Of a DNA stretch of 64,000 bases, positions 19,617 through 50,167 are shown one piece after another (within the stretch, counting starts at the first letter, position 1; the number at the start of each line of letters is the position of its first letter). The stretch is from Stictocephala bisonia (taxonomy: Eukaryota; Arthropoda; Insecta; Hemiptera; Membracidae). The DNA lies in assembly GCA_035578905.1 (NCBI GenBank), contig JAQJVL010000127.1, positions 124,001 through 188,000 of the forward strand, written 5' to 3'. The notes under the pieces were generated by a model that saw only the letters and a program-made list of their open reading frames with translations, was not told where the DNA came from and made no database searches. The position numbers were made by a program, and so were the translations under genes.

Positions 19617-20560
19617 CTACCAGTTCTCTTCCAGAAACTCGCCCACGCTGTAAAACGTATTATACGCTATAAAACGCTTAAGGCGAGTTTTAAACACCTT
19701 AGGTGGTCTGGGATTCTTAATTGACAGTAGCAATATGTTGATTAGGCGAGCACCTGTTTGTGAGAGCAAGTGTTCGTAAACTACCATTATGTGTCTCCCA
19801 GTCCGGTAATTTTCTCTGCCTCTTGTCTTGTACCCGTGTACTTAACGGCATCTGGTTAAGGCACAGTTAAAAAAAAAACAAAAAACAAAAAAAAAAAAAA
19901 ACGGCAGTTTGTAAAATATAAAGACTAAGTAGAGTCAACAGATGCACATTTTTAAAAGTAGCCTTGATCGACTCTCATGGTCAATTTTGCGATAGTTCGG
20001 ATCACCTTTTTTGTAATTTAAATACTCTTAAAATGAATGTTTGCACTGAAACCACACAACACCACTTCATAGGAAAGATGTGGATAAACCGGACCATAAT
20101 ACTCCGTAATCAGTACCTGACTTGGGCAATATTTGGCCAAAGATCTTAAAACGAATATCCCCGAGGATAATTTGGTGCAAATATAGTCAATGTGACGGTA
20201 CCATGTCAAATCTCGATCGAGGTATATTCCAAAGAACTTTGAGGAATCGCCTTCCTCTAGAATGGAGTCTGCCACCATGGCGGTGAGTCCCCCCTCAGAC
20301 TTTGTAGAGCGTAATGAAACATTTAGAACATTCGATTTTGATATGTTTGTTTGAAGCTTGAGTCTGTTAAACTGTTGAACGAAGTTCTTTTTTAACGAAA
20401 GTTTTTGCCTCCAAATTTAGTTTTGAGCTTTCTTTAAAATATAAAGTTGTGTCATTAGCGTACTGCACCGGTTTTCCGTGCAGAAGTTATGAACCTATGT
20501 TATTAATATAAACCAGGAAGAGAATAGGACAGAGAATTGAACAGAAGGTAAGTGATGAGA
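19617..20560 (-). pseudogene. LINE reverse transcriptase C-terminus (Jockey/CR1-like)
   Basis: Minus-strand remnants in order: SVLGPILFLVYINNIG (near 20545-20500), then VQYANDTTLYFKES, where the catalytic YADD appears as YAND at 20451-20462. Next comes the long open stretch 20018-20278 with SSKFFGIYLDRDLTWYRHID and LRSLAKYCPS. Then FKLQKRVIRTIAK (about 19985) and NYRTGRHIMVVYEHL (about 19800). The end is KTRLKRF ... FYSVGEFLEENW and a stop at 19617. This is the standard C-terminal part of Jockey/CR1-type LINE ORF2. It is 5'-truncated, with stops and frameshifts. An A-rich run at 19868-19902 sits inside it and is probably a slippage expansion. The D to N change at the catalytic aspartate means even this part would be inactive. 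Confidence 0.88.
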
Positions 20561-27154: not shown

Positions 27155-30100
27155 TTTAAATATCATTGCAATGACTATTTATTATCAATAGTGCAATGCC
27201 AAAACTATGTTGTTAAGTTCAAATATAACATGTCAATCATATAGCCTTGTATTTATATTTTGGTAATTTATAACTATACATATAATTGTTATTACATACA
27301 AGTCCCTAGTAGTAGTTATTACATATTACCCACTTCACAGACTAATTAGAATTGCACTATTATTTACTAGTGATAAAAGTAACTTTAATACAATAATTTT
27401 CATTTGGAATATAATTTTATAGGTGTTAATTTACAGCTTTTAATGTGCCCATTAATGTAGAGAACATAAATTGTTATTTGAAATTTAAAATTTGTATTTA
27501 AACGTGAATTTTGATTTTTTTATATCCACTGTGACTACGTAGGCGAAGTTTAGACAACCTAGGTAAATTCTGATAATTTTCCATGATTAAATTACTAGAT
27601 AAAAGATGCTCTCTTTATGATAAAGACTACAAACATTTTACTTTAACCATATTACTTATGGACCTACAACAATTTATCTGCGATCAATTGTTTTGGTATT
27701 TTTATAGACCTTTGTGAATTATCCGTACTTTCACTAGCAAATATTGTATATTTGTTTAGAATTTTAATTGGTTTTGTTCCGAATAAATCAATCGTAAAAT
27801 GCTAGTTTTTCTTTGTATATTATTATTTTAATAATTTTACTTGAATATACATGAGTAAGATTCTCGGAACTATGAAACTTTTCAACGAAAATGTTTCCTT
27901 AGGTCAAGACAAACGTGAGTCTACGGTGACTATTTTACTATTTGTCTGTCTGATTGTGTTTTTTACAAATTATTTTATAACTCAACAACTATTTAAGAAA
28001 CTTCAAATTTAGTATACACGTGTAGCTTAATAGTTAAAACAAGGGAATTAAATATAATTGATTTAACTTAACTCATTTCAAAATGGAGGCCTTTTATATT
28101 CTTAAAAATTTAAAGTAGGACATTTTTGACTAACTTAAAAATATATCAGTTATTGGACAAAATAGTGTGAACTATACGATCTTTGAGTGTTGTTTATCAA
28201 ATATAAATTGTTATTAATATCTGGTACAAGTATATGATTAACAATTACCTATTTCCGGTGTAAATGCAGAGTACTCTTCACATAAACATGACAGTGTATC
28301 CTGCAGTGTTGCGGTTCCTGGTAAAAGTATCAATACATATCTACTTGCTAATGCTAACATGCTAATATAAACTGTACATTAATAACTTGCTATACAGCTT
28401 TGTACTGTTCTGTTTATATATTTACCATTCTATTATATCATGTTCGATATATTCTGTATACAGGTTAATTTGTTTGTATTAAAAATCATTCTGACTGATC
28501 TATCATTTTACATAAAATTATTCTACATAATTAAATCTCTTTGAAACATCGCTTTGATATTGTATATTTCCTATCTAGATTTGCTGAAATTGGATTCGCA
28601 ATAAATAAGACCTCAAATAATATGGGTTATATGTAGGAAATTTTCATCATTAAAGAGCAACGCAACCTACGAATGTTAAACGTGTATTTGATTTTGAAAA
28701 TACCTGAAGTATAAAGTAATATAGGTTCCAATATTTACAGCTGGATTTTGTACCAAACGAAGTCTAACATAGTTATTATTTTTGACGACACTTTAGTTTT
28801 CTTGTAAACATTTCTATCGTAGAGACGAAAACAAATATTTGTCGTTTTACTCTTAACATATATTATACGTATATAAAACAATCCACACTAATAATAATCA
28901 TCTAAATTACCCTATTCGTGGTTTTAAATAAATATTTCCATTTATTATTATAGTTATTAATTTATAATTGACTTTATTATACATATTAAATAATTTGATA
29001 AAATGCTTTTAAGATGCCTTTTACATGTTTACCCTTAGAATTATTCTGTTTATCCCAACTTTTAGGACCCAAGTCTACTATTTAAACATTGTAATATACA
29101 TATACATATACATAAAGTAGTCCATAATTACCCTTATTATATGTATAAATATAATATGTATAGATAAATACATAATGTAGATAACTGCAAGGCCCATTTT
29201 TTATGTTAAGACCTTTATGAAATTTAGAGACAAAATTACTACAAAAATGTCTCAGTAATGATAAGAAATTGTTTTTTTTTTTTCTATTTAAAAATCTAAT
29301 ACCTATAGCTCTATAAATCATAATAAAATAGGCACCTAATTTATACACATTATTTATGTTACCTATTTTTATATTTTAATTTTTGTATATGAGTATGTAC
29401 AAGGTTTTCACTACCGATCTTAGTTCTAATCATAGTGATGACTGTTTACCCAAGATTAATTAGAATTATTATATTTAATAATTTAAGCAAAGAACGTTAA
29501 GACCATTAAAATAATGTCAACTATATAATGGTATTAAATCTACTGTTATACTCCTTAATGATCAAGGAAGCTATGATGAATGTATGGCATTTGGATTTTA
29601 ATGTATACACAATACAATTCATTAAAACCGTTTACTAATGAAAAAGTCTGTCTCTAAATAAATACAACACCAAATTAAAATTAACTTTTAATGATTTTGA
29701 AGTAGTCACAACATGTCTGTCTCCTTATCAAAATATGTTTTTACAACAAATGAGTTAGTTGATAAGTTAATATTATTTCAACAAGGATTAGAGAAATCTA
29801 AGGCAAATAATGTTTAAATTTATAATTATTAAAATTGTACTACCATAACACATTTTTTAAGGTCCTTAGTACAAACGTTAGTTATTTTATTTGGTAGTTA
29901 TATTACGCCTTCTAGGATGTTATTGTTAGCATTTACTTTCGATCGAATCTCAGTAGTTTCAGAGGTTATCAAATATATTAAGAACAATCAAAGAAACGTG
30001 GTAGAAAATATTGTTTAAGAGTTACAAATTAGCATGTAACTTCCTAAAAACAATACATATGTATAATATATCAATATATGATAAGATACGTTTTGATTTA

Positions 30101-30260
30101 ACAAATTGTCTTAGTTTAATACCATTTAGCAAAATGCTACAGCAAATATATTATAACACCATACAATTGTCAAGCTAGACGTAGATAGTTAAATTAATTT
30201 TTCTACAACAAGATCATAAGCTTAAAACAAATAGTACAAAAACCACCCATATAAATAACA
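27155..30260. other. No gene seen apart from Repeat R2 at 28220-28340
   Basis: AT-rich. The minus-strand frame at 29082-29348 is tyrosine-rich because of TATA-type repeats and is not a gene. Confidence 0.65.
28220..28340 (+). repeat. Repeat R2, copy 4 (partial)
   Basis: CCGGTGTAAATGCAGAGTAC, TTCACATAAACATGACAGTG, CCTGCAGTGTTGCGGTTCC match 14510-14580. Confidence 0.75.
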
Positions 30261-30337
30261 TTATATTTATATAGATATATATTTATATTAATATATATAT
30301 ATATATATATAGATATATATATATATTATATATATAT
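30261..30337. repeat. (AT)n microsatellite left of the Penelope element
   Basis: Interrupted AT repeat directly abutting the element's left end. Confidence 0.93.
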
Positions 30338-31083
30338 ACAGTACAAGTAAACGTCACACAACACAAATTTATTACAATATAGCACAAAATGCACAAATAT
30401 ACTACAATACAAGCACAAAATGCACAAATATTATGGTGATCCGATTTCGGTGAACCACGCTCACCTTCCTCAGACCAGAGGGATTCACAAAAGAATGGAA
30501 AACGGTGTTCAACAACTCAATTATAGGCCTATGATCACGTGACCTCATTGGCTGAATCGTCAAAATGGCGGCTGCTGTGATATTATTGGTTAATTCCTAT
30601 TGTCTGTTACTTCTCTTCTTTTATTTCGCTGAAAATACATTATTAAAAACTATTTCGGAATCAAAATTAACCTGTTCATTCATTAATTTATCACGATCCT
30701 TACATTTTTCTTTAAAAATAAATAACCCTTCCCAAGCATTCATGTTACGACCCTTCTTACAAAATTTTAGAATATCTACATTTTCATCTATTTTATTCAA
30801 ACTGTGGGTAAAATTCAGAAGGTGTTTAGCTACATTAGATCTTTCAGGTTTATTATTTTTAAAAGCAGAGACATGGTTTTTATATCTTTTGCTAAAATTT
30901 ACAGTCTGACCTATGTAAAACATATTACAATCATTACAGTTAATCCTATATATTCCTGAATTATTAAATTGATCTTCACTTTCAATATTCGAGTGTAAAT
31001 TGTTGGACATAGTATTACAAGTCTTAAAAGCTACTGATAAATTGAATTTCTTAAATCTATTACCAACTCTTTGTGTAAACGGC
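30338..31083 (-). repeat. Left pseudo-LTR (inverted copy of the Penelope 3' end)
   Basis: This is the reverse complement of 32581-33335, similar over nearly its whole length. It contains the GIY-YIG coding end, the 3' untranslated part with a CCGCCATTTTGACGATTC-like segment, a hammerhead motif, and the terminal segment ending in GTGACGTTTACTTGTACTGT. It carries two copies of a subrepeat of about 34 bp (TTTGTGCATTTTGTGCTT...), where the right end has one. The join to the RT body is at 31083/31084. Confidence 0.92.
30434..30477 (-). ncRNA. Type I hammerhead ribozyme motif in the left Penelope pLTR
   Basis: The same motif on the minus strand: TGGT, CTGAGGA, extra A, helix II GGTGA/TCACC, GAA, helix III ATC-G-GAT with a single loop base, C as cleavage base, ACCA. 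All core positions match the right-end copy. The one-base difference sits exactly at the helix III turn, so it does not disturb the core. Confidence 0.78.
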
Positions 31084-31085
31084 AA
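30621..31085 (-). pseudogene. GIY-YIG endonuclease domain of the Penelope element, inverted partial copy
   Basis: An open frame of 154 codons on the minus strand. It encodes the endonuclease end of the element without the RT. The motif GIYRINCNDCNMFYIGQT lies near residues 45-62 and holds the two GIY and YIG halves. FSKRYKNH follows, with the conserved arginine, and NAWEGLFIFKEKC comes later with the glutamate position. CNDC is the cysteine pair typical of Penelope endonucleases. Family knowledge: this domain nicks the target DNA to start reverse transcription. The frame is intact here, whereas the + strand copy is frameshifted at 32860. The apparent ATG is the join with the RT body, so this is not a real start. 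It is a by-product of the inverted pLTR and probably not expressed as an independent protein. Confidence 0.9.
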
Positions 31086-33030
31086 ATCTGAAAATGATGT
31101 ATTGTGTTATGGACCCAAACATAATTTCATAAGAAATCAAAACAAACAAGCCGATATTTTAGCCACAGACATTGAATGTAATGTATCTCAGTTGAAAGAT
31201 TGTAACAGAAACGAAATTAGATATGATGTAAGTAAAATATGTAAAACAATGCAGGTCCAAACTAATAATTTGAAACAGGGTTTTAGGATTATAAAGTTTG
31301 TTTAGGATGTAAAACAGAAATACAGAAGTGAAGATCTAGTCGCAGTTAAAGCGGATAAGAGCAACGCAATTGTAATTCTGAAAAAAGAAGATTATATACT
31401 AAAACTGAAAGATTTTATCAAGGAAAATAAATTTTCAAGGATCTAAAAGGTGATCCTACAAATAAATATCAGGATGAAATTAATAAAGGTTGTAAAATCT
31501 TGTACAAAAGTTATTACTGATAATGTTCGTTTTAGAGCTTTTATGAATAATCCTAAGGCACCCACAATGAATGGTATTCCGTAAATTCACAAACCTAATG
31601 TACCTATTAGGCCCCTGGTAAATTTCAAATCTGCGCCTACTTACAATGTATCAAGAGATATTGTCCAATATTTTGACTTCTGCATTGAACCTTAAAAATA
31701 AATATACCGGTATAGAACAGTATTGATTTTGTTGATAAGGTCAGTCATGTAAAATGTGTGTAATAAAACTAGGTTAGCCTCATTTGACATATGTAATCTA
31801 TACACTAATATTCCAGTTGATGAAGTGATTAACTTAGTTAAGGAAAAACTTTGTAGAACAACAATATGAAAAAATGTATGTAAATCAAATTGTAAAGTTG
31901 CTCAAAACTATCTTGAAACAAAATTACTTCCGTTTCAATAACAAATTTTACTTACAAAATGATGGTTTAGCTATGGGTAGTCCACTATCAGCCATTTATA
32001 TGAAGTTTATTTACAGTATCATGAAGACTCTAATTTTAGATAAATTAAAAAAGGAACATGATATCATATTTTACACCCGTTATGTCGATGATATTCTGGT
32101 TTTGTTTAACGAGAAATCATGTAATGACTTAGATAATATGTTAAATATACTTAATTGTCACCACCAGAAGCTTAGTTTTACCAGTGAATTTGAATCTATG
32201 AATGAAATTAACTTTTTGGATCTAAAAATAACTCGTGATCATAACAAACTTTCATATAGAATTTTCAGGAAACCTACTCAAACCAATTGTACCATAAATA
32301 ACAGTTCTGTCCATCCCCCGTCTCACAAAACAGCTAGCTTCAGAAGTATGTTGTATAGGGCGTATTCAATACCATCAAATGTTGCAGATAGAAAACAGGA
32401 AATAAATTTAATAAAATCAATAGCTATTGCAAATGGATACAAAGCATCAATGATTGATGAAATTGGAAGTAGAATAAAAAAGAAAATAGAAAACAAAATT
32501 CGAGACGATAGACGAACAACACTTAAAAAAGAAAAATCCGATAAAGAACAAAAGAAGTATGTATCCATCCATTACAATGGGCCGTTTACACAAAGAGTTG
32601 GTAATAGATTTAAGAAATTCAATTTATCAGTAGCTTTTAAGACTTGTAATACTATGTCCAACATTTTACACCCGAATATTGAAAGTGAAGATAAATTTAA
32701 TAATTCAGGAATATATAGGATTAACTGTAATGATTGTAATATGTTTTACATAGGTCAGACTGTAAATTTTAGCAAAAGATATAAAAACCATGTCTCTGTT
32801 TTTAAAATTAAGAAACCTGAAAGATCTAATGTAGCTAAACACCTTCTGAATTTTACCCACTAGTTTGAATAAAATAGATGAAAATGTAGATATTCTAAAA
32901 TTTTTTAAGAAGGGTCGTAACATGAATGCTTGGGTAAGAGTTATTTATTTTTAAAGAAAAATGTAAGGATCGTGATAAATTAATGAAAGAACAGGTTAAT
33001 TTTGATTCCGAAATAGTTTTTTAATAATGT
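31084..33030 (+). pseudogene. Penelope reverse transcriptase plus GIY-YIG endonuclease, 5'-truncated and frameshifted
   Basis: This is the main coding body. From 31084 the frame reads YGPKHNFI, then an N-terminal Penelope region (VKADKSNAIVILKKEDY near 31345-31395), then IHKPNVPIRPLV near 31590. RT motif A, LASFDICNLYTNIPVDEV, starts at 31774. The longest clean frame (31874-32863, 329 aa) has LQNDGLAMGSPLSAI (motif B), YTRYVDDILVLF (motif C with catalytic YVDD), NFLDLKIT and FRKPTQTN, then a basic linker and the GIY-YIG motif GIYRINCNDCNMFYIGQT. Breaks: a stop at about 31302, stop or frame changes near 31444 and 31583, a shift near 31850 in a run of A, and an extra base near 32860 that cuts the endonuclease short compared with the inverted copy at 30621-31085. 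The 5' end is replaced by the inverted 3' copy. The catalytic residues are still present, so the loss looks recent or partly due to read errors. Confidence 0.93.
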
Positions 33031-33331
33031 ATTTTCAGCGAATAAAAGAGAGAAGTAACAGACAATAGGAATTAACCAATAATATCACAGCAGCCGCCAT
33101 TTTGACGATTCCAGCCAATGAGGGTCACGTGATCATAGGCCTATAAATTGAGTTGTTGAACACCGTTTTCCATTATTTTGTGAATCCCTCTGGTCTGAGG
33201 AAGGTGAGCGTGGTTCACCGAAATCGATCACCATAAGATTTGTGCATTTTGTGCTTATATTGTATTAAATTTGTGTTGTGTGACGTTTACTTGTACTGTA
33301 TATGTACCAACACGTATTATGCTAATTAAAA

Positions 33332-33335
<4 letters not shown>
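32581..33335 (+). repeat. Right pseudo-LTR of the Penelope element
   Basis: The 3' part of the element, inverted relative to 30338-31083. It covers the GIY-YIG end, the untranslated region with a CACGTGATC E-box-like palindrome near 33127, the hammerhead motif at 33191-33233, and a terminal segment. The last roughly 47 bases before (AT)n recur inverted at 4350-4396, which shows that they belong to the element. Confidence 0.9.
33191..33233 (+). ncRNA. Type I hammerhead ribozyme motif in the right Penelope pLTR
   Basis: Read directly: TGGT (helix I 5' strand), CTGAGGA core (CUGANGA), one extra A at 33202, helix II GGTGA/TCACC with loop GCGTGGT, GAA(A) core at 33220-33223, helix III palindrome ATCGAT at 33223-33228, then C at 33229 (the expected H17 cleavage base) and ACCA, which closes helix I with TGGT. 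An outer helix I, GAATC (33182) with GATTT (33237), is separated by an internal loop. Hammerheads in Penelope pLTRs are established knowledge. Helix III has no loop in this copy, so a dimeric fold is likely. Function is inferred, not shown. Confidence 0.8.

Positions 33336-33375
<40 letters not shown>
33336..33375. repeat. (AT)n microsatellite right of the Penelope element
   Basis: Directly abuts the element's right end. Counterpart at 50101-50149 in the second block. Confidence 0.93.
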
Positions 33376-33377
<2 letters not shown>

Positions 33378-33403
33378 CTCCATTTGCGTTATCTCACTGT
33401 CAG

Positions 33404-33475
33404 AAGAACATTAACGAGATGTACGCAGACAGCGAGGCAGATTTATTCTTCAATTCCTTCTCTTCTGTGGAAATG
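33404..33475 (+). other. Candidate small exon, copy 2
   Basis: Same block, preceded by GCGTTATCTCACTGTCAG and followed by GTAAACTTTG. One T is missing in CAATTCC compared with the other two copies; this would shift the frame and is probably a read error. Confidence 0.35.
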
Positions 33476-33663
33476 GTAAACTTTGCATAGGTTTGTATAC
33501 AATTCACTACAATAGTAATATAACAGTTCTTAATGAGTTTAAAATGCTTATGATTTACGACAATAAAGGTATGTTATAGCAATTATGAACTGTATAATTA
33601 CGAAACATAGTTTTGCTTAGAAATTGATGATATAGCTCAAAAGATAACATGGTAATCGCCAGC

Positions 33664-33823
33664 GGTGGTGGGCTCAGGTGGCTAAGGCATCGGACTGCGG
33701 AGGGCAAGGTCCAAGGTTCGAATCCCCACTGAGACCAACGGTCGGTACTTCACTCGTTGAATAAAGTTGACGCACAGGCCTGTAGGCCCATGTCAATTGG
33801 CGAGTGAATTTATAAAAAAAAAA
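33664..33823 (+). mobile_element. tRNA-derived SINE, family A
   Basis: The head resembles a tRNA: an A-box-like segment GGCTCAGTGGCTAAGG (here broken by extra G bases) and B-box GGTTCGAATCC at 33715. A unique body (GGTCGGTACTTCACTCGTTG ...) follows, ending in a run of A. The tRNA-like part ends in ACTGAG(A)CCA, which pairs with GGCTCAG at the start. Its second-block counterpart at 50422 has the cleaner sequence. Confidence 0.85.
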
Positions 33824-34621
33824 TGGTTACTCTATGTTTACATTTTAAGATATTCTAATTATTTATGATATTTCTAATCGTACTAAATCACAATAAGTAA
33901 TTTTAGAATGTAACAAACGGTTAATTTGAAAAAGTGCTTAATTTGAAAAAGTATTTATTGTAAAAATGTCAATTAATATTTTATTGGTTACTGCACAAAT
34001 TTACTGAAAGACAATGTTGATATAAATAATAGTCAAAACTAACTTCACAATTTACTGTTTCATTTCAAATTCATAACTGTTATTGAAGTATGTTATTAGT
34101 TTTATACCATAACATTTGTGCCCATGACCTAACATAGAAAAATATATCTATAATATTGACTTCATAACAGTTAATCCTAAAAATCTGTCACAAAATTGCA
34201 TATTAGAGGCAGGTTGCAGCAATAAACTCGGAAATGACGTTGGCACTACAGACATATAGGCAGAATATATTATAGACACCTATATGACAATGAGCTTAAT
34301 TGGTATTTTAATTCAGGTCACGTGATCTAAAGATACCCGAATATAACTGAAGGTAGCCGAAGTGATAGAAATCAACGATTGCTGATGTTAACCGAAGGTG
34401 AGTCATACGCAGTCGGGTAGCCGAGGATGTTCGAGGGGTAGCCAAAGACTGTTGTTGGTTCTATAACTGGGCGGTTCAACTTTCAGAAACCGCTCCCCCT
34501 TTTAATACCTAATTTTCACACTTATTGTAGATGAATGATTTTAAGCAAATACATAGAGAGTTAGTTGCAAATGTACACATGAAATACATCTTTTACTGTA
34601 GCTAACGGGTATAAAACTTGT

Positions 34622-34895
34622 AGTTTGGTAGCGTAGGTTTGGTTAAATCCCAGCTTCATGTGCTAAAGGTTCTCAGTTCGATCCCAATCAGAGTCATAAT
34701 ACATTTTGAGAAGGATCAGCTGATAACCGCTGGCTGTTCATTTGTCATTGGGCTATTAATTAATGACACTTTCTAAGGAATAGTCGGCCTTAGTTTGTAA
34801 CAATTTTCTACATTCGCTCATCTACACTCATCATACATTATTTGAAATCCATATTCCGCCCATATCTTGACGATCGGCGTCTTATAAATAAATAC
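34622..34895 (+). mobile_element. tRNA-derived SINE, family B
   Basis: A-box-like TAGCGTAGGTTTGGTTAA (TAGCGTAGTTGGTTAA in the second copy) and B-box AGTTCGATCCC at 34676. A long body follows, with GGCTGTTCATTTGTCATTGG and AGTCGGCCTTAGTTTGTAAC, ending near a short A/T-rich tail. The body recurs inverted at 3485-3650. Confidence 0.78.
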
Positions 34896-35544
34896 TTTTC
34901 ACAAGTTTCAAAACGCAAAAGAACACTTAAAACAATATTTTTGTATTGGATGATATTTACCTAATGCTTAGCTTAGTCATATTTTAAATTGCTGTAATTA
35001 CATTATTAGTGTTTTAATTTAGATAAAACATACGCGTTATTGTTCATTTCTATAATTGGTAATATTTTTACTGTATTGGAAATCAAAATAAAAAGATATA
35101 CACAACTATTTGAAACACACATAAAAGCCTTACAATATAGTTTAGTTATTGAATTTAATATAAGGTTAACATGTAATATTGGTTAATTGCGAAAAACCGA
35201 ATTGTATAAAATTAATACTTTCTAAGATATATTAATTAACTTACAGAAAAAAAATTGTACTAAAATTAGATATCAATATTTTTAACAACAATACAAATAC
35301 TTAAGTTTTACAGTATATATGTTATCCCGTGTATTAATAAGTATGAATACAATATTCAAAATAATTTATTAAATTTTTTATAGAACAAAAATTGATTCAT
35401 ATAATATCAGAAAATATATATCTCCTATTTTGTAGTTTTCTTTTGGATACCTGTACCTTATGTAAATTGTTTTAAGTTTATTAATATATATATAAATTCA
35501 TTTACATTTTTATTAATTATTCATAATTAAATAATCACTAGTAA

Positions 35545-35715
35545 AACACAAAACCTAGCCAGGCTACAAACCACCTCAGTAATTAACTTTCCCAAGAAAG
35601 AGACTAGATAAGTGAGCTGGAAAAATTCGTGGCGCTAAGTGGGGTTCTTTGATGTTCTTCTTGGTATAATAATACTGAAATTTCTACTTATTAAAGTTTT
35701 GTAAGTTTACGTTTT
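35545..35715 (+). repeat. Repeat R1, copy 5 (diverged)
   Basis: TAATTAACTTTCCCAAGA, TAAGTGAGCTGG, GGTTCTTTGATGTTCTTCTT, AAATTTCTACTTATTAAA. Counterpart at 52278-52445 in the second block. Confidence 0.6.
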
Positions 35716-36366
35716 TTATCTATCAATGGCAACTCAATAATCAATCGTTTTATTTGTTTTTTAGATAATATTTAACAAATGCGAGTCCAATTTACGTTAG
35801 GAAATTCGAAGTACATGGCCTCAATTTATTAAAGATGAAGTTTATTATTTAATGTAATATATAGATTTATGATATATATATATAATGGCTACTTAAACCT
35901 ACAATATCACAAAATAGCTAGACATTATATTTTATTTCTGTTTTACTTAAGGGGACCCCGAATGCCATTTAAACGTAATGTTAGCCATAAAGCAGATATC
36001 TCTGTAAGATGTGACCTAGAGCTCTATTTTTTTTTTTTTTTTTTTTATTTGAAAGATTTACCTTTTATCTATGGCCCATACAAAGGGGATTTTTTTTAAT
36101 TTTTAAGAAAAATTATAATTTAAAAAAAATAGTAGTTCTAAGTATAACATTTTTATAACAAAAATATTTTTATTTTGTTTTTATTCAATCTAAATCAAAA
36201 ACCCTGTGTATGGACCTAAAATTTGGGTCTTATGTATGAGCCCTGAAAATTTGGTAAGGATATTTCAAATGGTTACCAAGATAATTTGTGTAAAAAATGA
36301 AAAAACCAACTTTCGTAAAATGCAAAAAAACTAAAGAATTACCAACATAGTAAAGTTTACTTAAAA

Positions 36367-36840
36367 CTAGTGAAGCCCAGCACCATAGGAAGGGTTGTCT
36401 GGGTTTTCCTCTGCCTCATACATATCTTCTAGCTTCCTCTTAGCAAGGGTTCTTTGTTGGCAGATTTTTTTTTTTCCAATTCCAACGCTGCCTTGTCAGA
36501 TTGTCGGATACGATCAGAGTCTTCTCGTTTCATGGATTTTATACAATAGTGGCCAACCTTCAATCCTAAATGTTCTAAGAGTTTGCATTTACTCATGTAA
36601 CCATCATTGAAGGACAAAACTGCCTATATGTTTCCAAATTTCAGGATTTGGCAGGTATACAAATGTCCGTTTGGGAATCCGAGTCCATATCAAATTGTTC
36701 AGTGATTCATTTGGATTCTGTAACTTGCCTGACAAACATTTCTTTAGTAAGTCTGGTGTAATAAACTCGTGGAATATGTGTGTTGATTTCTAACATGATT
36801 GGTTCTGGTAGATGGAAGTGCTTAGTATGGTCATAGTCTT
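36367..36840 (-). pseudogene. C-terminal remnant of a Mutator-like/Kolobok transposase, first copy
   Basis: Minus-strand conceptual reading gives a helical segment around LPEPIMLEIK, then NESLNNLIWTRIPKRTF, then SFNDGYMSKCKLLEHLGLKV. A lysine/glutamate-rich tail follows and ends in YGAGLH and a stop at 36367. The order NESLN-W-RIPK ... FNDG ... basic tail ... YGxG is what I know from arthropod proteins annotated as Mutator-like transposase domain. Frameshifts occur between these parts, and a longer T run near 36465 shifts the tail out of frame compared with the second copy. Only the last roughly 150 residues remain; no catalytic DDE part is visible. Confidence 0.7.
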
Positions 36841-36965
36841 CTATGGTCATAGAAACTCTATACTATATGAGTTGGTGAACAGGAATGTCATTTCCATGGA
36901 AACAAAATCATGTGTAACCTTTATAAATAAACATTTTTTTTCGTTTATTTGCAAATAATTAACCC

Positions 36966-37001
36966 TATATATATATATATTATATATATATATATATATA
37001 G

Positions 37002-37033
<32 letters not shown>
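36966..37033. repeat. (AT)n inside the Kolobok-like element
   Basis: Interrupted AT repeat. Counterpart at 53678-53742. Confidence 0.93.
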
Positions 37034-37034
<1 letters not shown>

Positions 37035-37453
37035 CAGTGGAAAAGAAGAGATCTAAGGTTTAATTTATAATAAAAATCCCAAAAATGTAAAAAACGTTTT
37101 TTGCGTTTAGGGTCCCCTTAAAATAAATGATCAAAATTAGGAAATATATTTAAAGAAGGTAAGATTTTAAATAAAATATTTAGTTATATTGTGGGGTGTA
37201 GTTGAAAAACGTAATTTTCAAATTACAACTTGAATTATTGGTTTATATATTATTTATGAAAAATATAGTAAAATAAACGTTATTGGTTTGCATATAAAAT
37301 AAAATACTGACACATAATAGTAAACTTCACATTCTATAGTATGTAATATTACCAAGTTTTATTAGTTATAAGGTATAATAATTAGTAAACTACGATAGTC
37401 AATGTAAACTATACTGATAAAACAAACACATCGTTAATGAAACTTACAAAGAG

Positions 37454-38394
37454 TCTCCCCTGTAGTGATAAGTGTAATTATACACTTCATAAGTAAAATT
37501 ATACCAGTTCCCTAATGGCGTACCGGTAGTGGAAGTACTAGAAGCTGCTTTTATGTATGCAGAGGTTAACCATTATCTGACATTAGGAGTGCGTACTTCC
37601 TTTAGTAAGCATTGAAATATTCCGCTAACATCTATGTGAAATTAGTGTATAATGACCTGTACGTGTATGGTTGGTAGGTAGGTCAATACCACTTTACGTA
37701 TTGTTAAATTAATTATTGTTGTATAATTCAAAATGTAACAAAAATAGTTTAAGATAACTGTAATTTAAACTTCTTCCACTACTTTAATCTTGTTAAGATT
37801 TTACACCCTGTTACTGAAACAGATTAATATATATTTTTTTTTTAGAGTAAATATACCATTAATTAATTTTTATTTAACAATTTTAATATCCAACTGCATA
37901 TTTATAAAAAGATTATATTTAAGAATAAAAAATTAACAAGGTATTCTGATATAAGGGGCACTTATTTAATTGTTTAAAGTATGCAATAAGATTATCACAT
38001 ATATTAAAAATGCAAATACTAATCTATGATTTTTTAAATAAACTAATATTAGACATTTATTAGTGCATATTTAAAATGGTATCATACAAACATTTGCAAT
38101 ATTTGCTCCACCATAAAATTATCATTACTAGTAAAAAAGAGTAATATTTTTTTTAATAAATGAAAAGTAGTTCAGATTACAACTAGGATATTATCTCAAT
38201 ATAAACCAGAAGGAGAAAGTGTAATTGGTTCACAGACCAGCTTATAAATGCCTTGTTAATCATTTGGATATAAACTGAGATCACTTGCATATAAAAGGAG
38301 TTTCTAGTACTTCCACTACCGGTAGCCGTTAGGGAACTTGTAAAGTGCCTTGAAGTGGATACTTTTCACTTATTACTACAGGAAGCTTATCTAC
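37454..38394. mobile_element. TIR element of about 0.94 kb (non-autonomous DNA transposon)
   Basis: Terminal inverted repeats of about 95 bases: the left one (37454-37550) reads CTGTAGTGATAAGTG ... AGTTCCCTAATGG ... ACCGGTAGTGGAAGTACTAG, and the right one (38297-38394) is its reverse complement with substitutions and small indels. The inside has no coding potential. It contains one inverted unit of the CATACACGTACAGTGG-type minisatellite at 37660-37705. No target duplication was recognised. Related half-ends occur at 39490 and 44290. Confidence 0.75.
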
Positions 38395-38544
38395 TCAAAA
38401 TGTGCTGTATTATAATGAAGTTATTAGTGTCATCAGGAAGATAGTAAAATTATTACCATACAAGGATCTGGTTCCACAATTTGAAGTAATCTACCCCATG
38501 CTATTTAATAGAAATATTAAGGGAGATAGTAATTTCTTGGCTAT

Positions 38545-38645
38545 GTACGTTGGGATAATAATTGACTAAGAGAGAGGGAATTGGCTGGTTCTCCCTGAAG
38601 GCGTGTCTTGATTGTGGTTCTGTACAGGACACATCACTGCCTGCT
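38545..38645 (+). repeat. Repeat F, copy 2
   Basis: Core as at 23270, with TACGTTGGGATAATAATTGA in front, shared with 42572 but not with 23270. Confidence 0.82.
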
Positions 38646-38828
38646 TTAGAAAACCTTTTATAAAATATTTTGAGTAAATGCTGATTAAAAGGATCTTTAT
38701 CTATTTCGTGTAATAATTTAAATATTATGGATCGTTTTCATAAGATGATGATATGAAACATTATTCTTATATTGTTCAAAACTAAATAATTGGTCCATTG
38801 AAGATGCAATAGGAAACTGGTTTTATAA

Positions 38829-38888
38829 ATAATATATATATATATATATATAGATATATATATATATATAGTATATATATATATACAT
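38829..38888. repeat. (AT)n microsatellite
   Basis: AT repeat with GAT and GT interruptions. The counterpart 55511-55563 is nearly uninterrupted. Confidence 0.93.
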
Positions 38889-39329
38889 TACTCGAGGGAC
38901 TAATCAATTGCTATAATATGGGTTTTGACAAGTATTTATTTGTCACTACTAACGGAAAATTCTTTTCGGTACACGAAATTTCCTACTTTAAAGGAATTTT
39001 GATATGGTATGTTGTTATTGGCAAACTACATAGAAACCCCAACGTTAACAATTATTGATATGTACAGATGCTTTTTATTATGTAAATTTTGTTGTTTAGA
39101 TATTTAATATCATCTCACACTACATTGAGTTATGTTTTGATTTACTAAAATTTAAGGAAGAGTACTTTTAACTTAATGTAAGTTTTAGATGTACATTTTA
39201 ATCCAAATGTATTATGCTGTAAATTGAATTTGTATTATCGAGAATGGTAATTGAATTTTTCAAACCCTCACGCTAGAGTTAGAATCACGAAAAATTCTTC
39301 TTTTCGTACATTTGTGATGGTATTACCCC

Positions 39330-39432
39330 CCCACACTATATACTTACAGTAATATTGACCCTCCTACCCATCTGCACATGTATACAGGTATTGACCCACT
39401 TACAACAAAAACATGGTTGACCTATACAGACC
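39330..39432 (+). repeat. Short array of the same minisatellite (about three units)
   Basis: Units ending in AATATTGACC, GTATTGACCC and GTTGACC, with CACATGTATACAGG, parallel the 47755 array. A run of C precedes it. It lies directly before Repeat D copy 1. Confidence 0.65.
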
Positions 39433-39464
39433 TATAAATTAGTCAAAATAATACACTTAATAGA

Positions 39465-40140
39465 GCTTAGTAAGATGAAACCAAGATATCGTACTTAAGG
39501 TAGATAAGCTCCCGGTTACAGTAACAGTAATGTATCCACTTCTAAGGCAATTTACAAGTTCCCTTACATTTACTGGTAATAGAAGCTCCATTCGTGTGCA
39601 TAGGACATTAAGTTCACTAAAGTTAACCACGGTATTTGTATACTAGAATGTGAGAACAAATATGTTTACTCGGTGTGTTTTTGTATTAAAATGATATCTG
39701 ATGGAATTCTGATTCGTTATGTTCTACTAAATCAAATTAATTTAATTTTTATTATTATTAGTCTGATGTTATAACACTTTGTGCTTGATAGCGTATTTTT
39801 ATTCAAACCAATTATCACTTGTAAATCACTAAGACAGTCTCATTGAAAAGACAAATATATTAGCTTTTTGTTATAAATGGTACATGTATGACATGTTTAT
39901 ATTGAAAGGTTGCTTTAAAAATCAATTTACTAAAAGCACCATATGCGAGAAATAAAAAATGAATGGTGGAAGTGATATAGACAAAATACTGTTCCCCACT
40001 GTATAATTCCTTTTAAAACAGCCGTTTTATTGGCAAACTTAGAATTGGGATGGCAGCAGCAGTATTAAGCTCTAGATTAAGCATACGTCATTGGCAGCAG
40101 AATGACTTGTAGTTGGTTTAGTTTAAACTATGGATATGAT
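39465..40140 (+). repeat. Repeat D, copy 1 (TIR-like end plus GAATGGTGGAAGTGA block)
   Basis: Starts with AAGGTAGATAAGCT, continues with a stretch related to the TIR of the 37454 element (AGTTCCCTTACATTTACTGG), then about 300 bases of AT-rich spacer, and ends with GAATGGTGGAAGTGATATAG, TTCCCCACTGTAT and a GGCAGCAG...GTATTAAGC segment. It matches 44265-44965 in the same order. Confidence 0.75.
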
Positions 40141-40765
40141 CTTAGAGATAGATTAAAATTTTAAACGTAAGTAAATAATATTCTGATGATAATATTAACT
40201 CATGGAGGACAACTGATGTACGAGAAGAATAGTTTAAGGATAATCGTAATGACTTAAAAAGTGTATTATGTATCTTGTAATTCCTGCTTTTCGGTGATAG
40301 TTAATAATAATCGTTTTATCATCAGGAAACGTTTAGGATGGCAGGTAACATATAATATGATATAAGGTCTTTGTTATTATAGTGAATCTACTTTGCTCCT
40401 TAATTTAACTTAAGTTACATCGTTTTTTATGCTAGAAAATGAGCACTTTAGTTTATAGCATAGGTTAGCATTTAAATAACTTTCTTTGATCATTTACGTT
40501 TTGTGACCTAAGATGACAATGATAACCAAAATAAAATTTGTTATTCAATTAATTTAGATTTTTGGTAAGTATTAGGGTAAAAGATGTCAAAATCTATGAA
40601 ACGTTTGTGAATCTAAAGGTTAATAATTTACATAAACAAAAATCAACTAACAAGGGAACTTGGAACATTTCTCAGATATTTGTGAATCATGTAATAAAAT
40701 TTAATTTGTAAAGATTTTTTTGCAGTTTCGAGATAAAAAATTATATTTATTGCATCACTGTAAGT

Positions 40766-40767
40766 TG

Positions 40768-40798
<31 letters not shown>

Positions 40799-40807
40799 TG
40801 TGTGTGT

Positions 40808-40857
<50 letters not shown>

Positions 40858-40905
40858 GTGCGCGTGCGTGCGTGCGTGCGTGTGTGCGTGCGTGCGTGTG
40901 GGTGT

Positions 40906-40943
<38 letters not shown>

Positions 40944-40996
40944 TGTGTGTGTGTGTGTGGTGTGTGTGTGTGTGTGTGTGTGGTGTGTGTGTGTGT

Positions 40997-41049
<53 letters not shown>

Positions 41050-41124
41050 AGTGTGTGTGTTGTGTGTGTGTGTGTGAGTGTGTGTGTGGTGTGTGTTGTG
41101 TGGTTGTGTGTGTGTGTGTGTGTG

Positions 41125-41157
<33 letters not shown>

Positions 41158-41273
41158 TGTTTGTGGGTGTGTGTGTGTGTGTGGTGTGTGTGTGTGTGGT
41201 GTGTGTGTGTGTGTGTTGTGTGTGGTGGTGTGTGTGTGTGTTGTGTGTGTGTGTTGTGTGTGTGTGTGTGTGT
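40766..41273 (+). repeat. (GT)n array with an internal GTGC part, interrupted
   Basis: About 510 bases of GT repeats with a GTGC/GCGT cluster at 40852-40897 and many GTGG or TTG interruptions. Open frames here in all frames are artefacts of the repeat. Confidence 0.97.
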
Positions 41274-41794
41274 AAATAATGAATTCCATGAAATTCAAAG
41301 CAATTAAAAACGACAAAATAGTAAATACTTAGGATGGACAGGTATTTTTTAAAATAATTTATGGTTTATTTGATACTATCCTAATGGTTAAGTTTGAAAA
41401 AAGTTTTTACAATTATTTTTGTTTATTCTTCGTTGTATTCATAAATTATTATTTGTAATTATTAGTTTTAACCCGTAATGTTCCATATTAAATACGCAAT
41501 AGTGTTGTGAATCAACAGATTATTTACAAGTTATTGTATTAGTAAAGTATACATTAAATACCATGGGTATAATAAAATAGCATAGTTACACAACTTTTCA
41601 CTATTTTATTTAGTTCAACGACCTTAGAAAATTTTTTAAGAGACTTTAATATTATGAATATATAATTATTTAGAATTATTTTAACTAAAATTATATACTA
41701 AAATGTATTTGTTAATGCAAACACTAAATATAATTTTACCTTATTTTTCAAAGATGAGTGAAGATACAGTGAAATATACTTCCTTGGAAATATG

Positions 41795-41990
41795 CCAGGA
41801 CGTCTAATATTTCTTAGCTAGTGTTGTGAGAAACTACTATTTACTTTGCTGTATTTGTCAATCGGTAACCTCGTATTTACCAACTACTTAAACCTGTACA
41901 TCCTGCATACGTTGTTAAAAAATAACTTGATGTTATCAAATATATCAAAAGACAAGAAGAGTTATTTTATCGTCCTTACGATAAACATAA
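41795..41990 (+). repeat. Repeat E, copy 1
   Basis: Shares TTTACTTTGC(T/C)(G/A)TATTTGT, CCAACTACTTAAAC/CCAATTACTTGACT, TACGTTGTTAA(A/G)(A/T)AATAAC and AAAGACAAGA with 48255-48450. Non-coding. Confidence 0.7.
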
Positions 41991-42571
41991 ACAAATCAAA
42001 CGAGGTATTCGTTTTACTTATTCTTCGGTCCTTTTCATAAAAAATAAAAAAAAAAAAAATAGAAAAAACGGTTAATACAGTTAGTTAAAATTATACTCGA
42101 TATTACAGTATATACAAAATATACATAGCATCATATATAATTAACACACTTTAACTATGTATCTTCTTTGTTAACATTATGCATTTGATGCATTTAATTT
42201 TTAAAACAATGCCCAATATAGATTAAAATATTAAAATGCTGTTAAAAATTATGTCCCATCAATGTTATGACTGTCTACTAGTGACTACAATATTATGATT
42301 GTATACAACTTTGACCAACTGGAAGGCTATATAAAGGTTTTATTCAATAAACATTTTAACACAAAAATATTTCGTGAATAGATTACGAATAAATGAAATG
42401 ACAATGCATATTATTATGTTGTTACATATCATTAAATAAATGTTGTTTATTTTACTTTAAAGTATTATTATTAATTTATGATTATAAATCCAGAAGAATT
42501 AGTAGTCCAATGTATATAGTGCACATCATGTCATGTAATGGAAAATTTAAATGAAAGAGTGTTTTCACGGC

Positions 42572-42665
42572 CCTGTACGTTGGGATAATAATTGACAAGG
42601 AGAGAGGGAATTGGCTGGTTCTCCCTGAAGGCGTGTATTGATTGTGGTTCTGTATTAGACTTATA
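42572..42665 (+). repeat. Repeat F, copy 3
   Basis: Core as at 38545. It diverges after GTGGTTCTGTA. Confidence 0.82.
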
Positions 42666-43544
42666 AACTCACCAAAGACAATGCAAGATAAATTTTGGCA
42701 ACAAAAAAATCTATAGTGATTTAATTTTCATCCTTCTGTATGAAAATTATAAACTAAAAAAGTCAATTATATTCCTCAAATTATTTAGCTTATGGCTTAA
42801 TAATATTCAAGAGGCTGCGGTAATATTACTTAACTAATAAGGTAATGTATCATTGTTTGTGCATTCTTTAATTATAATAGCTGAAAGGGTTTAAACTGTG
42901 TCCTATTAGGTAATGTAAGCAATAGTTTTGATAAAATTGTGAATAGTTGTGAAACCTTTCTTTATTTGAATAAAATACTATGAAAAGCAGTTTACAAAAT
43001 GTAATTAATTATTCCTTTAATCTTATTTATCTAGCCATTATTCAATTATGTACAATTACAATTAGGTATAAGCATTTAATTTTGTGTACAAAAATCTAAT
43101 ATATAGTTGTTTTATGTACTAAAAAATAAATCTTGTAGTGTAATGATAATCACAAATAAAAACAAAAAAAATATTAGTTTTTATAAGTACACATGTTTCT
43201 TTAGGTATTTAACTATACACAATATAAAATTAATTTCATTATTAAAATTAATAAATTAAACTGTATTATGTATACAGATAATTATTTATCTCAACTCATA
43301 TCGTGCACAATTTAATATTTTACTTCATTTATTACTAAATTATAATGATAATATTTGGTTTGTATTCATAAAAAATAAGTTAATTATATTGTTATCATTG
43401 ATCAACATTTTATAATTTGTCTAATTGACCAAGAGGTTAAATTCATAACCTTCTGAATCAGTTCAGAATTGTGGTGAGAAGAAAAATATGAATACGTCCT
43501 GATACCAGTAAATTGTCGTATTCTCTGTGTCAATTAAGTTACTT

Positions 43545-43745
43545 TGTCATTTGGTTATTCACCAATATCGAAGCTTTTGAAGTAATTATCTGCCTAGGGT
43601 GTTAATGACAGCGTAAAGTGACTAAATGATGAGTGGGTAAAATTGTGCCTGTGGTGGGTTCTTTGATCCTCAGTTGGTAAATTATAATGTTACTGAGTTT
43701 CTACCTTAATAAATTTTAGCTAGGTTAACATTATTCTACTTGTCA
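43545..43745 (+). repeat. Repeat R1, copy 6 (diverged)
   Basis: TTTGGTTATTCACCAATATC, GAAGTAATTATCTGCC, GTGTTAATGACAGCGTAAAG, GGTGGGTTCTTTGATCCTC, GTTTCTACCTTAATAAAT. Counterpart at 60080-60260. Confidence 0.6.
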
Positions 43746-44264
43746 TTTTTCAGAGCGGTAATTTGGTTATCAGGGATATATGGATGAGTATTATGATGAA
43801 TGAATGAACGTAGAATAACGATCGGGCAATCTTATTGACTAACCAATGTTGAATATTAATTAGAAATATTAACCGCCCCCCCCCCCCTATTAAAATTTAA
43901 AGATTGACTAAGAAACCTTGAGTATACGTGGAATTCAAACCATGTAGTATTATGTCTGATTTTTCATGCTTAATGAAAAACTTGGTATCGTTCTATCCGT
44001 ACACAACATCAGTATATATTGGACACAGAACACACAACGATATACCTATTTGAGTGGTGGTCCACGTGAAGGGCAAACCATTGTGCGTAAGATGTTTCAG
44101 TATTAGTCGGAAGGACCGAGTATAAAAACATGTCACCTACAATATATACATTCACTATTCCCTTGAGCTACGCTGTGTTACAGGTTGTACTAAAGTGCCG
44201 ACTATCAAAAATATTCCTACGTTAATACACCTTTGGGTAATTGTACAAAATTTATTCAGATATT

Positions 44265-44965
44265 TCGTAAGTTAAAACCAGAATATCATATTTAAGGTAG
44301 ATAAGCTACGCGTTACAATAACAGGAAAGTATGACTTCCAAGGAACCTGTAGAAGTTCCCTTACAATTACTGGTAATGTAAGTTATTAAAAACTCTTTTT
44401 ATTATGCAAGTGAAGTCAGGAACACCAAATATAGAGTTTAACACGGGACATTTGTACGCTAGAAAGCGAACCAATTTAATTTACTTCGTTCTATTTATAT
44501 TCAAATTAGTACTGGTGGTCTCTCAAATCATCTTATTCAACTAAAACTATCCATTATAATGTATTATTAGTTGTGCCGTGGTGATAAAAACATTGTCTTG
44601 GGAATAATCTACAAATATTTTAGTGAAAATTGCTCAAAAAGTAGAACATATGAATCCTGTAAAATCGCATGCTAGGGTTCGGTTTCTCTGTGAGAAAGGA
44701 TTATCTCAATATTAGAATTTGTGAATATGTATAGTACATTTATGACATACATATAATGCAAAGGCCGGTTTTATAAAGCAGCTACTGAAAGCAGAGGGGT
44801 GAGAAAGATACACTGAATGGTGGAAGTGAGTGAGAAAACTATCTCTCCCCTCTGTGTCATATCTGTTTCAATTATTAAACAGATTCATAGTGTCCAATAT
44901 GTAGATAGGCTCTGTGAGCTGCTGCACAGTATTAGATCTAACCCAGTACGTAATTAACAACAGAA
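44265..44965 (+). repeat. Repeat D, copy 2
   Basis: Aligns with 39465-40140: AAGGTAGATAAGCT, AGAAGTTCCCTTACAATTAC, AAGTGAAGTCAG, TATGACATACATATAATG, GAATGGTGGAAGTGAG and CTCTCCCCTCTGTG. The copies are clearly diverged, so this duplication is older than the gap-linked block duplication. Confidence 0.75.
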
Positions 44966-44999
44966 AACTTTGGTTTGTTCAATTATTGTAATCAATCAG

Positions 45000-47754
45000 A
45001 TATAGCGAGTAAATTAACTTTGTCAGTTAATACTCAAATAAATATCTAATATTAAGTACAAATTAAATAATGATTTAAGAAATAACTGTATAGTACAGCA
45101 TCACGTTTACATCATAGGTCTAGTTATATGGGAAGACTACCAAAAAAGATAATTTTTTCGGTTTTAGTTAACTTTGTTGGTTCATGTTTTCTGAAAAATT
45201 TTACATATAACAAATACTCATATGAGCTCCTAATCATTAAATTTTTTTCTTTTATTGTTTTACAATGGCATATTTTGAATAATATTGGTGACTTTGCAGC
45301 TGTTTTTTTGACAATTTATCAAATGATCAGAGTAATTAGAGTAAACTATATCCTTTGTTATGTACATGCCTATCTTATTATTCTCTTTATTATGCTTTGC
45401 CCCCAATAAAGTGTTAAAAATATGCATAATGTTTTTAGTCATAACCTATGTTATGTATATCATAACGTATAAAACAATTTTTTGTCATAAGTAAATTTTC
45501 AGAAAAACGATTTGTCTTTACTAAAGAATCAATAAACCTAAAGATATATTTAATAAAAGGAAAAACAAAGCAAAATGTGCCTCAAACGTAATTATATACT
45601 AGTCTAGTGTTAGACGAACTTTCCAATTTAGTAACTAGTGGGTCGTTGGTATTCTTAGGGAAAGCCCTATGTTCCAACTTGTGCTCTTACGACTGGTGTG
45701 GCATTAGTACAAAAAGGCACATGAGAATGGAAAACCAATACAAACATAAGTAAAAAAAATAGCAATCATGAAATCTTAAAGTTAAAAAAAAAAATAAAAA
45801 ATTTATCTACAAGATTTATTAAGATGAAAATGTTAGTTAGGAATGTTTTTGTAAGGCAGAACAAGGAATGGCAATGATTAGGTTAACAATTTGGTGTCTG
45901 CGCGTAATCAAAGATATAATGTTGTGGGTGAGCACAATTAATTAAAAATGGTTGTATTGGTATCACGTTATCATCACTTGCAGTATGCATAATGTCTCGT
46001 GTCGCTGCCTTCAACAAGTATGCCTCAAAAGAGTACGTGTGAGGCTTTTATTAGCAAACAACTGAAATGAGATACTATATTCGCACTTGACTAGGATTAC
46101 GTGTAAAGAAAGCAAGAAATTACTACCCAAATGTTGTTACACAAGGAGCCGGATGAAAGAAAAGAAAAGAAATAGTCACAGACAAGTAGACAAAGAAAAC
46201 CATCTTAACATGGAAAGGCCTCTTAAATTAGTAGCAGATTTAACTTATATTTTATATATTTTGTTAACTTTTTCCAGTTTTCCCAAAAACCCATGTTTTA
46301 TTTCAAAAAGATCCATTATTCTCATAAATACAAAAGGTAGGGACTTTAAATTGTTTTGGTATACGCTTTTGTATTGACTTTTTGCTTTTGTTTATCTTTA
46401 GTGACAAATGTTAGAAAGAGTTATTGATTATATCAGATTTCAAACTTTTTTTTATTGAAATCTTTTATAAATATTTAAAAATAATATAATTATTTAATTA
46501 TTTTATTGAGTTTTGAAAACTAGATTAGTATAATTAAAATGCATAAATGTACAGTTTTAGAATTATAAGATGAGATATCACTAAAGGTTTGTGAGCTATT
46601 GGGTTCAAACATATGTCACATTAACATGGCCGGGATAGGATGGAGTCTCCTAATAATGATAATATTTTTACATATGGAAATAATATAAAACATTTTAAAA
46701 GAGACAACATAGAAGTCCTCAATTTGACAGTGATCAACTCACTCTACTAACTTAGGCTACGTATATCGTTTGCGTGCTGAAAAACGAGCACTGAAGTGTA
46801 TGTAGGGCTTTGCATTTTAAATTATGATTAGTTTCTTCTACGTTATAACCTCCGATGACACAGAGTATAATTATTTTTACTAATATTTGGTTTATAATAA
46901 TAAAACTAAAAAACTAATAACATATGGGCTCATTTATTAATAACAGTTTATTTTCTGTATTTATTATTAATTAATGCAAAAATATAAAAGCAATTGACAA
47001 CAGGTAGAATAACTTTAAAATATTAAAAAAATTATTCTCTTTATTTAGGGGTTTCTCTTAAAGATTATTACTAGTTCATGTAAAATTAGACAGACGTAAC
47101 TAAAATTAAAAAAAAAAATAAAAAAAGTTGTTCATCACAAGCTCCATACTATTATACAAAAACAATTTTTTTTTATCTCTTTACAAACTTATCAAATTAT
47201 TTGTAATTGGTTGAATCTTATTACGTATATTTTAGGTTTTGTCGTTGAGATTTGTACTTTACACTAATTTGGTATATATGTTGACTTATAATTTTTCAAA
47301 TAGTTAGGTGTTGTTTAATGTGTGTGTTAACTGAAATAATGATTTAGTTTTATAAATTTTTGTTATTATCTGTTGAACCATTATATATTCTTTCGTTAAA
47401 TATAGTTTTCTACATGAATAAGGTAATTTAGAAATTATGGTTAAAGTGTATTAGTATATAGTCGCCAAATTTAAAGAAAAATTGAAATTTCTTCTACGAC
47501 AATTCAATTAGCAATCATAAATTTTGTGCCATTTAAAAGTTCATAAATATGGTTACATATGATTTTTTCATAAACAAGGCTTTTTTTACATTGTTCTGCA
47601 AATAATATTTTTTACGTTCAGATTATAATTTAGATGTCATTTTAACCTTAAAAATTTGTAATTTAACTAAAAACATTGAAATTGTATTCACCATTTGTCT
47701 AAGAATAACATCAAATGATACAAAATTACTCGAACAATTAATAAACAAAGCCGC
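45000..47754. other. No gene seen (first block)
   Basis: AT-rich. Short frames at 45128-45409 and 46087-46377 are not kept in the second-block copy, so they are not supported as genes. Confidence 0.65.
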
Positions 47755-48060
47755 CCGCCCAACCACATTCATGTAGGTGCTTGACCCACCCGGTCCAATC
47801 CCATACAAGCTTACTATTGGTACTGTCACACTCGTCCAACATACACATTCGGTGGTATAGATCCCACACATACACGTGTCGGTTGGTAGTTGACCCACCC
47901 GCTCACCCATACAAGTACAGTTGGCATTGACCCACCAGCCCACCATACACGTACAGGGGTATTGTCCCACCCGGCCACTGATACACGTACAGTGGTACTG
48001 ACCCACCCTCGCCACCTATCCACAGTGGTACTGACCCACTCGCCAAACCATATACGTAAC
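47755..48060 (+). repeat. Degenerate minisatellite, unit about 33-41 bp
   Basis: Eight or nine diverged units of the form CCCACCCG...CC, CATACACGTACAGTGG, TACTGA. It is much more GC-rich than the surroundings. The open frames over it (for example the one with RVGQY-CTC repeats on the minus strand) only reflect the tandem repeat and are not genes. Confidence 0.85.
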
Positions 48061-49570: not shown

Positions 49571-49670
49571 NNNNNNNNNNNNNNNNNNNNNNNNNNNNNN
49601 NNNNNNNNNNNNNNNNNNNNNNNNNNNNNNNNNNNNNNNNNNNNNNNNNNNNNNNNNNNNNNNNNNNNNN
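49571..49670. other. Assembly gap, 100 N
   Basis: A run of exactly 100 N, the usual size for a gap of unknown length set by scaffolding software. The sequence after it repeats what begins 16.77 kb upstream. Confidence 0.99.
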
Positions 49671-49678
49671 TAAAAAAA

Positions 49679-50149: not shown

Positions 50150-50167
50150 GCGTTATCTCACTGTCAG

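Follow-up and report, generated by a model that had tools for sequence, protein, structure and literature searches.

A putative minimal hammerhead ribozyme with an extra core adenosine in the terminal repeats of a degenerate Penelope-like element of Stictocephala bisonia

The analysed window comprises 64,000 nt of S. bisonia contig JAQJVL010000127.1 (positions 124,001 to 188,000 of the forward strand, assembly GCA_035578905.1) and contains a Penelope-like element whose longest open frame, read from stop to stop, is located at 31838-32863 (+). This frame covers part of a reverse transcriptase (RVT_1) and the start of a GIY-YIG endonuclease, both of which score just under their cut-offs (RVT_1 with 29.0 bits versus 29.6 and an E-value of 1e-06, GIY-YIG with 22.5 versus 22.6). 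In case of the frame in the inverted copy of the element, GIY-YIG scores above the cut-off (29.2 versus 22.6). The combination of reverse transcriptase and GIY-YIG endonuclease that assigns an element to the Penelope-like group is present, with two of the three domain scores just below the curated cut-off. A protein search with the Penelope ORF yielded 304 relatives, and among the best 120 an organism is named for nine, namely eight insects and Bartonella apis. The relative labelled B. apis (P0002) is 50% identical over 72% of the Penelope query, is situated on a contig of 2937 bases, and may represent insect DNA in a bacterial assembly.

The 3' terminal (pLTR) region that holds the putative ribozyme is located at 33036-33305 (+), its 5' limit being set by us, and is followed by a 33-bp tail extension at 33306-33338 (+). 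At the opposite end, an inverted terminal copy consisting of the 3' part of the ORF and the pLTR (30331-31083, -) is complementary to 32581-33306 and lacks the tail. The tail recurs as a reverse complement of 32 bases (4350-4381) next to a further copy of the motif at 4417. There it belongs to an inverted terminal piece (4350-4397, -) which faces two sense pieces (4402-4501 and 4522-4560) in a head-to-head arrangement. Both insertions, i.e., the element at 33191 and the remnant at 4417, thus have head-to-head inverted ends with a tail on one end only. Penelope-like elements are expected to carry pLTRs that are either inverted or in tandem, to which a tail of approximately 30-40 bp may be added; here, the pLTRs are inverted and the tail measures 33 bp. 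An inverted order and a facultative tail, given as 31 bp or as 30-40 bp, appear in sections of PMC3846280 and PMC11167929. The original prediction had emphasized that the inverted pLTRs place two ribozymes on opposite strands of one element; this arrangement is indeed observed, but the inverted pLTRs as such are covered by the description in PMC3846280 and are not remarkable.

Both element ends adjoin TA repeats, in line with a part of PMC11167929 in which AT-rich targets are reported for the element of the anole. Two pLTR units of approximately 35 bp (ATTTGTGCATTTTGTGCTT..) are found in the 5' inverted copy as well as at 4417, but one in the 3' pLTR, as shown by comparison of 30331-30445 (-) and 4449-4560 (+) with 33223-33305 (+). 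Due to this difference in unit number, the 5' and 3' ends of the element deviate from one another. The motif at 33191 is probably a passenger that sits in a broken element.

The best copy of the motif is located at 33191-33233 (+) and comprises all core positions. It starts with TGGT (33191-33194), the first strand of helix I, and continues with the core CTGAGGA (33195-33201) and an extra A (33202), which is situated between A9 and helix II. Helix II consists of 7 bp (GGTGAGC at 33203-33209 and GTTCACC at 33213-33219) and is closed by a GTG triloop. The adjacent GAAA (33220-33223) supplies G12-A13-A14, i.e., the GAA segment, and A15.1, the latter being the first base of the helix III palindrome ATCGAT (33223-33228, A15.1 to U16.1). 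C17, after which cleavage is predicted, occupies 33229, and ACCA (33230-33233) completes helix I, which stops at 4 bp without further extension. The sequence parts, their coordinates and the predicted cleavage site had been given correctly in the original prediction, except for helix II, whose pairs GGTGA/TCACC are present but were counted as 5 bp instead of 7. Likewise, the statement that helix III is too short for a monomer was borne out; the 33191 monomer would close one A-U pair at most. In contrast, the term "full type I hammerhead" is not appropriate for a motif without usable helix III, with a helix I of only 4 bp and without a match to an Rfam family. As far as can be judged from its bases and pairings, the hammerhead motif at 33191 is real, and it is a minimal form lacking a usable helix III.

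Three further copies were confirmed at the predicted positions: a second ribozyme copy at 30434-30477 (-) in the 5' inverted terminal copy of the 33191 element, a copy identical to 33191 at 49957-49999 (+), and a decayed copy at 4417-4459 (+) in a separate small Penelope remnant, which kept the core but is damaged in helices I, II, and III. The core positions, which we take to be C3-U-G-A-N-G-A, G12-A-A, A15.1, U16.1, and H17, are conserved in all four copies. Helix I and helix II are fully paired (4 of 4 and 7 of 7 pairs) in three copies, one of which is a duplicate, and 3 of 4 and 6 of 7 pairs are left at 4417. The extra A occurs in all four copies as predicted, and a sequencing accident is unlikely because these copies represent three loci. 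The short helix III that would permit dimer formation is found in two of the four copies, i.e., at one locus and its duplicate, where 33191 and 49957 share ATCGAT. Accordingly, the palindromic helix III of the original prediction holds for these two copies, but neither for 30434 (ATCGGAT, one base off) nor for 4417 (ATCAAT).

The copy at 49957 is located in a segment (49675-64000, reaching the end of the window) that repeats 32907-47650 over approximately 14.7 kb and starts four bases past a run of 100 N (49571-49670). The alignment of both segments spans 14861 columns, in which 304 mismatches were counted along with 458 gap openings (107 + 351), 361 of which concern 1 bp. Due to this excess of mostly 1-bp gap openings over mismatches, the repeated segment probably represents an allele or a duplication falsely introduced by the assembly, with indels that were left uncorrected. 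Since 49957 lies in the duplicate segment, 33191 and 49957 count as one insertion, and the "four Penelope ends" noted originally are four copies, but only three loci. Furthermore, 30434 is the inverted 5' end of the 33191 element, so that 4417 is the only separate insertion among the four copies. Considering the frequent 1-bp indels between the duplicates, the extra G in ATCGGAT at 30434 may be an error. A long TG/CA microsatellite (40764-41279 and 57322-57906) differs between the duplicates. In both duplicates, a tRNA-like, SINE-looking sequence was noticed by eye adjoining the element (33660-33820 and 50415-50580); no tRNA was reported by ARAGORN at these two stretches.

The separate insertion at 4417 deviates from the best copy by five substitutions in 43 bases, none of which affects the core. 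A base pair is lost through two of them and turned into G-U through two others, and the fifth disrupts the palindrome; among these five, compensatory double changes were not observed. As five changes in the 43 motif bases compare with seven in the other 57 bases of the aligned stretch, the motif does not appear clearly better preserved than its flank. A clear sign of selection is not apparent from these counts, as expected of a dead insertion.

A search against the Rfam hammerhead models, suggested along with the original prediction, gave no match to a hammerhead family at gathering score in the whole window. At E <= 10, four matches are listed for 29000-35000, the region including the copies 30434 and 33191, and two for 33150-33280, with no hammerhead family among them. 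The weak matches to other families (E-values of 0.72 to 9.8) are far under the respective gathering scores and were discarded. Rfam hammerhead models expect a real helix III.

Folding was predicted from nearest-neighbour energies, a calculation without tertiary contacts or Mg. The minimum-energy fold of the monomers is a hairpin, with -15.1 kcal/mol for 33191 and -20.0 kcal/mol for 30434, where TGGTCTGA pairs over the core; slightly longer pieces agree. In the dimers, the hammerhead reaches -25.1 versus -36.9 kcal/mol for the minimum-energy fold consisting of plain hairpins in case of 33191, and -24.1 versus -46.7 kcal/mol for plain hairpins in case of 30434. The prediction thus favors the competing hairpin over the hammerhead. 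The locus could instead encode a simple extended hairpin formed by helix II and a TGGTC..GATCA stem, e.g., a protein-binding or priming structure, with a hammerhead that is no longer active in this lineage. The predicted monomer folds, the negative Rfam search and the palindromes at pLTR ends described for Penelope in part of PMC3846280 speak in favor of this explanation. Nevertheless, we regard it as unlikely, since the exact CTGANGA, GAAA, and H17 core and the ATCGAT palindrome are left unexplained, and since the decayed 4417 copy kept the core bases although its predicted fold has lost the hairpin stem.

It is very improbable that the motif belongs to a non-autonomous retrozyme, i.e., to tandemly arranged short repeats which contain type I hammerheads and generate RNA circles, and not to Penelope itself. 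Animal retrozymes do contain type I hammerheads, some of which have a palindromic tetraloop and just one pair in helix III according to the text of PMC7229834. The motif studied here, however, is joined to an RT/GIY-YIG frame. Instead of short tandem hammerhead repeats without ORF, the window contains single motifs, to which the Penelope ORF is attached in case of 33191 and 30434, and no tandem ribozyme repeat was found within the window.

A descriptor was set up that requires the core together with H17, tolerates a single extra base, sets a minimum of 4 bp for helix I and for helix II, and expects 4-12 bases with a terminal U as helix III segment. It matches three places in the window, all of which are copies of the 33191 hammerhead family. 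It was written after the motif was known and misses the decayed 4417 copy in both its strict and its relaxed version. By chance, 0.0053 strict matches per window, a figure obtained before demanding a palindrome, and 0.073 relaxed matches are expected (1500 first-order Markov resamplings, both strands). A chance resemblance to a hammerhead is hardly credible in view of the strict expectation and of a motif found in the right element, place, and strand, even though the copies all descend from one repeat and count once and the descriptor was designed with prior knowledge of the motif. The simple CTGANGA..GAAA pattern has 10 matches in the window versus 1.95 expected; six of these 10 are unrelated to the hammerhead family and all six fail the descriptor.

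The search was also extended to other contigs. A loose DNA pattern gave two matches in viral contigs, which by eye are situated in GC-rich, coding-like sequence and were rejected, and a tighter pattern gave no match in either viral or genome contigs. No relative of the Penelope protein was detected in viral contigs (24 pattern stretches). With a 30-row alignment, genome contigs (35 stretches) yielded no relative, and a single weak one with 29% identity was detected among viral contigs (93 stretches). In none of the three outside loci (L001, L002, and L003) that originated from the DNA-pattern and protein searches of contigs was a hammerhead recognized by the descriptor.

Taking these observations together, the motif very probably represents a minimal hammerhead of type I as known from Penelope, located in sense orientation within the terminal repeat of a Penelope-like element that is degenerate and of the insect type. 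The missing Rfam match, the folding energies, and the lack of compensatory changes were counted against this assignment, as were results on the anole Penelope, where in part of PMC11167929 ribozyme mutants are reported to be without effect on insertion in vitro and RNA-seq ends were not seen at the site. The assignment is preferred because core, helices I and II, and H17 fit, with three descriptor matches versus 0.0053 by chance, and because the RVT_1/GIY-YIG frame, the inverted ends, and the tail are typical of Penelope. The original placement of the motif among the Penelope pLTR hammerheads is supported. Furthermore, a dimer-capable palindrome is present in two of the four copies, and reviews describe Penelope hammerheads that lack helix III, may cleave themselves as dimers, and share double-hammerhead structures.

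Minimal hammerheads of Penelope-like elements were reportedly described by Cervera and De la Pena in 2014 and by Lunse et al. in 2017. In the review literature, as far as the respective sections go, Penelope hammerheads without helix III are mentioned (PMC6155905, PMC7761336) which may self-cleave as dimers (PMC7761336), or which act as double hammerheads, for which a stem III palindrome and the necessity of tandem copies are indicated (PMC6466107). Their role is still described as unknown (PMC7761336), and earlier findings of self-cleavage at 3-25 mM Mg are mentioned in a passage of PMC11167929. The motif of S. bisonia resembles these minimal hammerheads as reviewed in its pLTR position, type I core, reduced helix III, and dimer-suited palindrome, and differs from them by the extra A and by two copies in inverted instead of tandem order. 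A literature search retrieved no report of an extra A in Penelope hammerheads, which is weak evidence; the two primary papers may show it.

Similar features are found in other systems. According to the relevant part of PMC7229834, HHR_Amex1 of newt and axolotl, which has a one-pair helix III with a palindromic tetraloop and cleaves much better as a dimer, shares the minimal, palindromic, and dimer-suited helix III, but lies in a retrozyme repeat and has loop 1-loop 2 contacts. In the legend to Figure S8 of PMC3088659, a palindromic, dimer-suited stem III is also given for a number of hammerheads, including one of Aedes. PAc of Anolis carolinensis (Poseidon) is, in the portion of PMC11167929 concerned, likewise a Penelope element with a tail and a hammerhead of stems I and II; unlike in the 33191 element, its ORF begins at ribozyme stem II, and its cleavage needed the protein of the element. 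Regarding the extra A, the proposed likeness to the chrysanthemum chlorotic mottle viroid (CChMVd) was corroborated: following the pertinent text of PMC3705267, the CChMVd (+) hammerhead has an unpaired A10 between A9 and G10.1 that moderately slows trans-cleavage. This likeness was judged on A10 alone, and CChMVd, as a viroid, represents an unrelated context. In the original prediction, the palindrome and the idea of a dimer had been considered noteworthy, but palindromic stems III (PMC3088659, PMC7229834, PMC6466107) and Penelope dimers (PMC6466107, PMC7761336) already occur in the sections of these publications. Hence, as far as these sources go, minimal Penelope hammerheads, double-hammerhead action, the palindromic stem III, and inverted pLTRs are already in print, and the extra core A is the one small oddity of the 33191 hammerhead.

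In a working relative of the element, two ribozyme copies, either on two RNAs or on tandem pLTRs of one RNA, would pair via ATCGAT. This pairing would create a helix III of 6 bp, with the strands of helix I being exchanged between the copies in the manner of a double hammerhead, and each paired copy would then be cut after C17, which corresponds to 33229. In this way, multimeric transcripts could be trimmed to unit length, and the element's own protein may assist, as reported for the anole Penelope. Due to the inverted order of its two motifs, a transcript of the 33191 element would carry one ribozyme in sense and the other in antisense orientation, and a tandem dimer in cis would not arise. 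A dimer would therefore have to be formed by two RNAs or by tandem copies elsewhere in the genome. Within one transcript, the inverted motifs could form a long duplex instead.

It is tempting to speculate that an insect Penelope lineage has fixed a viroid-like A10 together with a hammerhead that functions as a dimer only, the lone hairpin being inactive. Such a ribozyme would cut only when two element RNAs meet, perhaps with the help of the element's protein, and would serve as a sensor of copy number or multimers, a scenario that we consider rather unlikely. If active, the motif extends the Penelope hammerheads by a core of the A10 type and provides a test case for the question why these work as dimers or need the protein of the element. 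If inactive, it is one more ordinary example of a Penelope hammerhead.

Apart from the Penelope-like sequences, two stretches of the window were noticed by eye. An imperfect, minisatellite-like run with GACCCACC..CACGTACAG units is located at 47750-48060, and a frame of 132 aa at 20018-20416 (-) resembles a fragment of a non-LTR retrotransposon reverse transcriptase.
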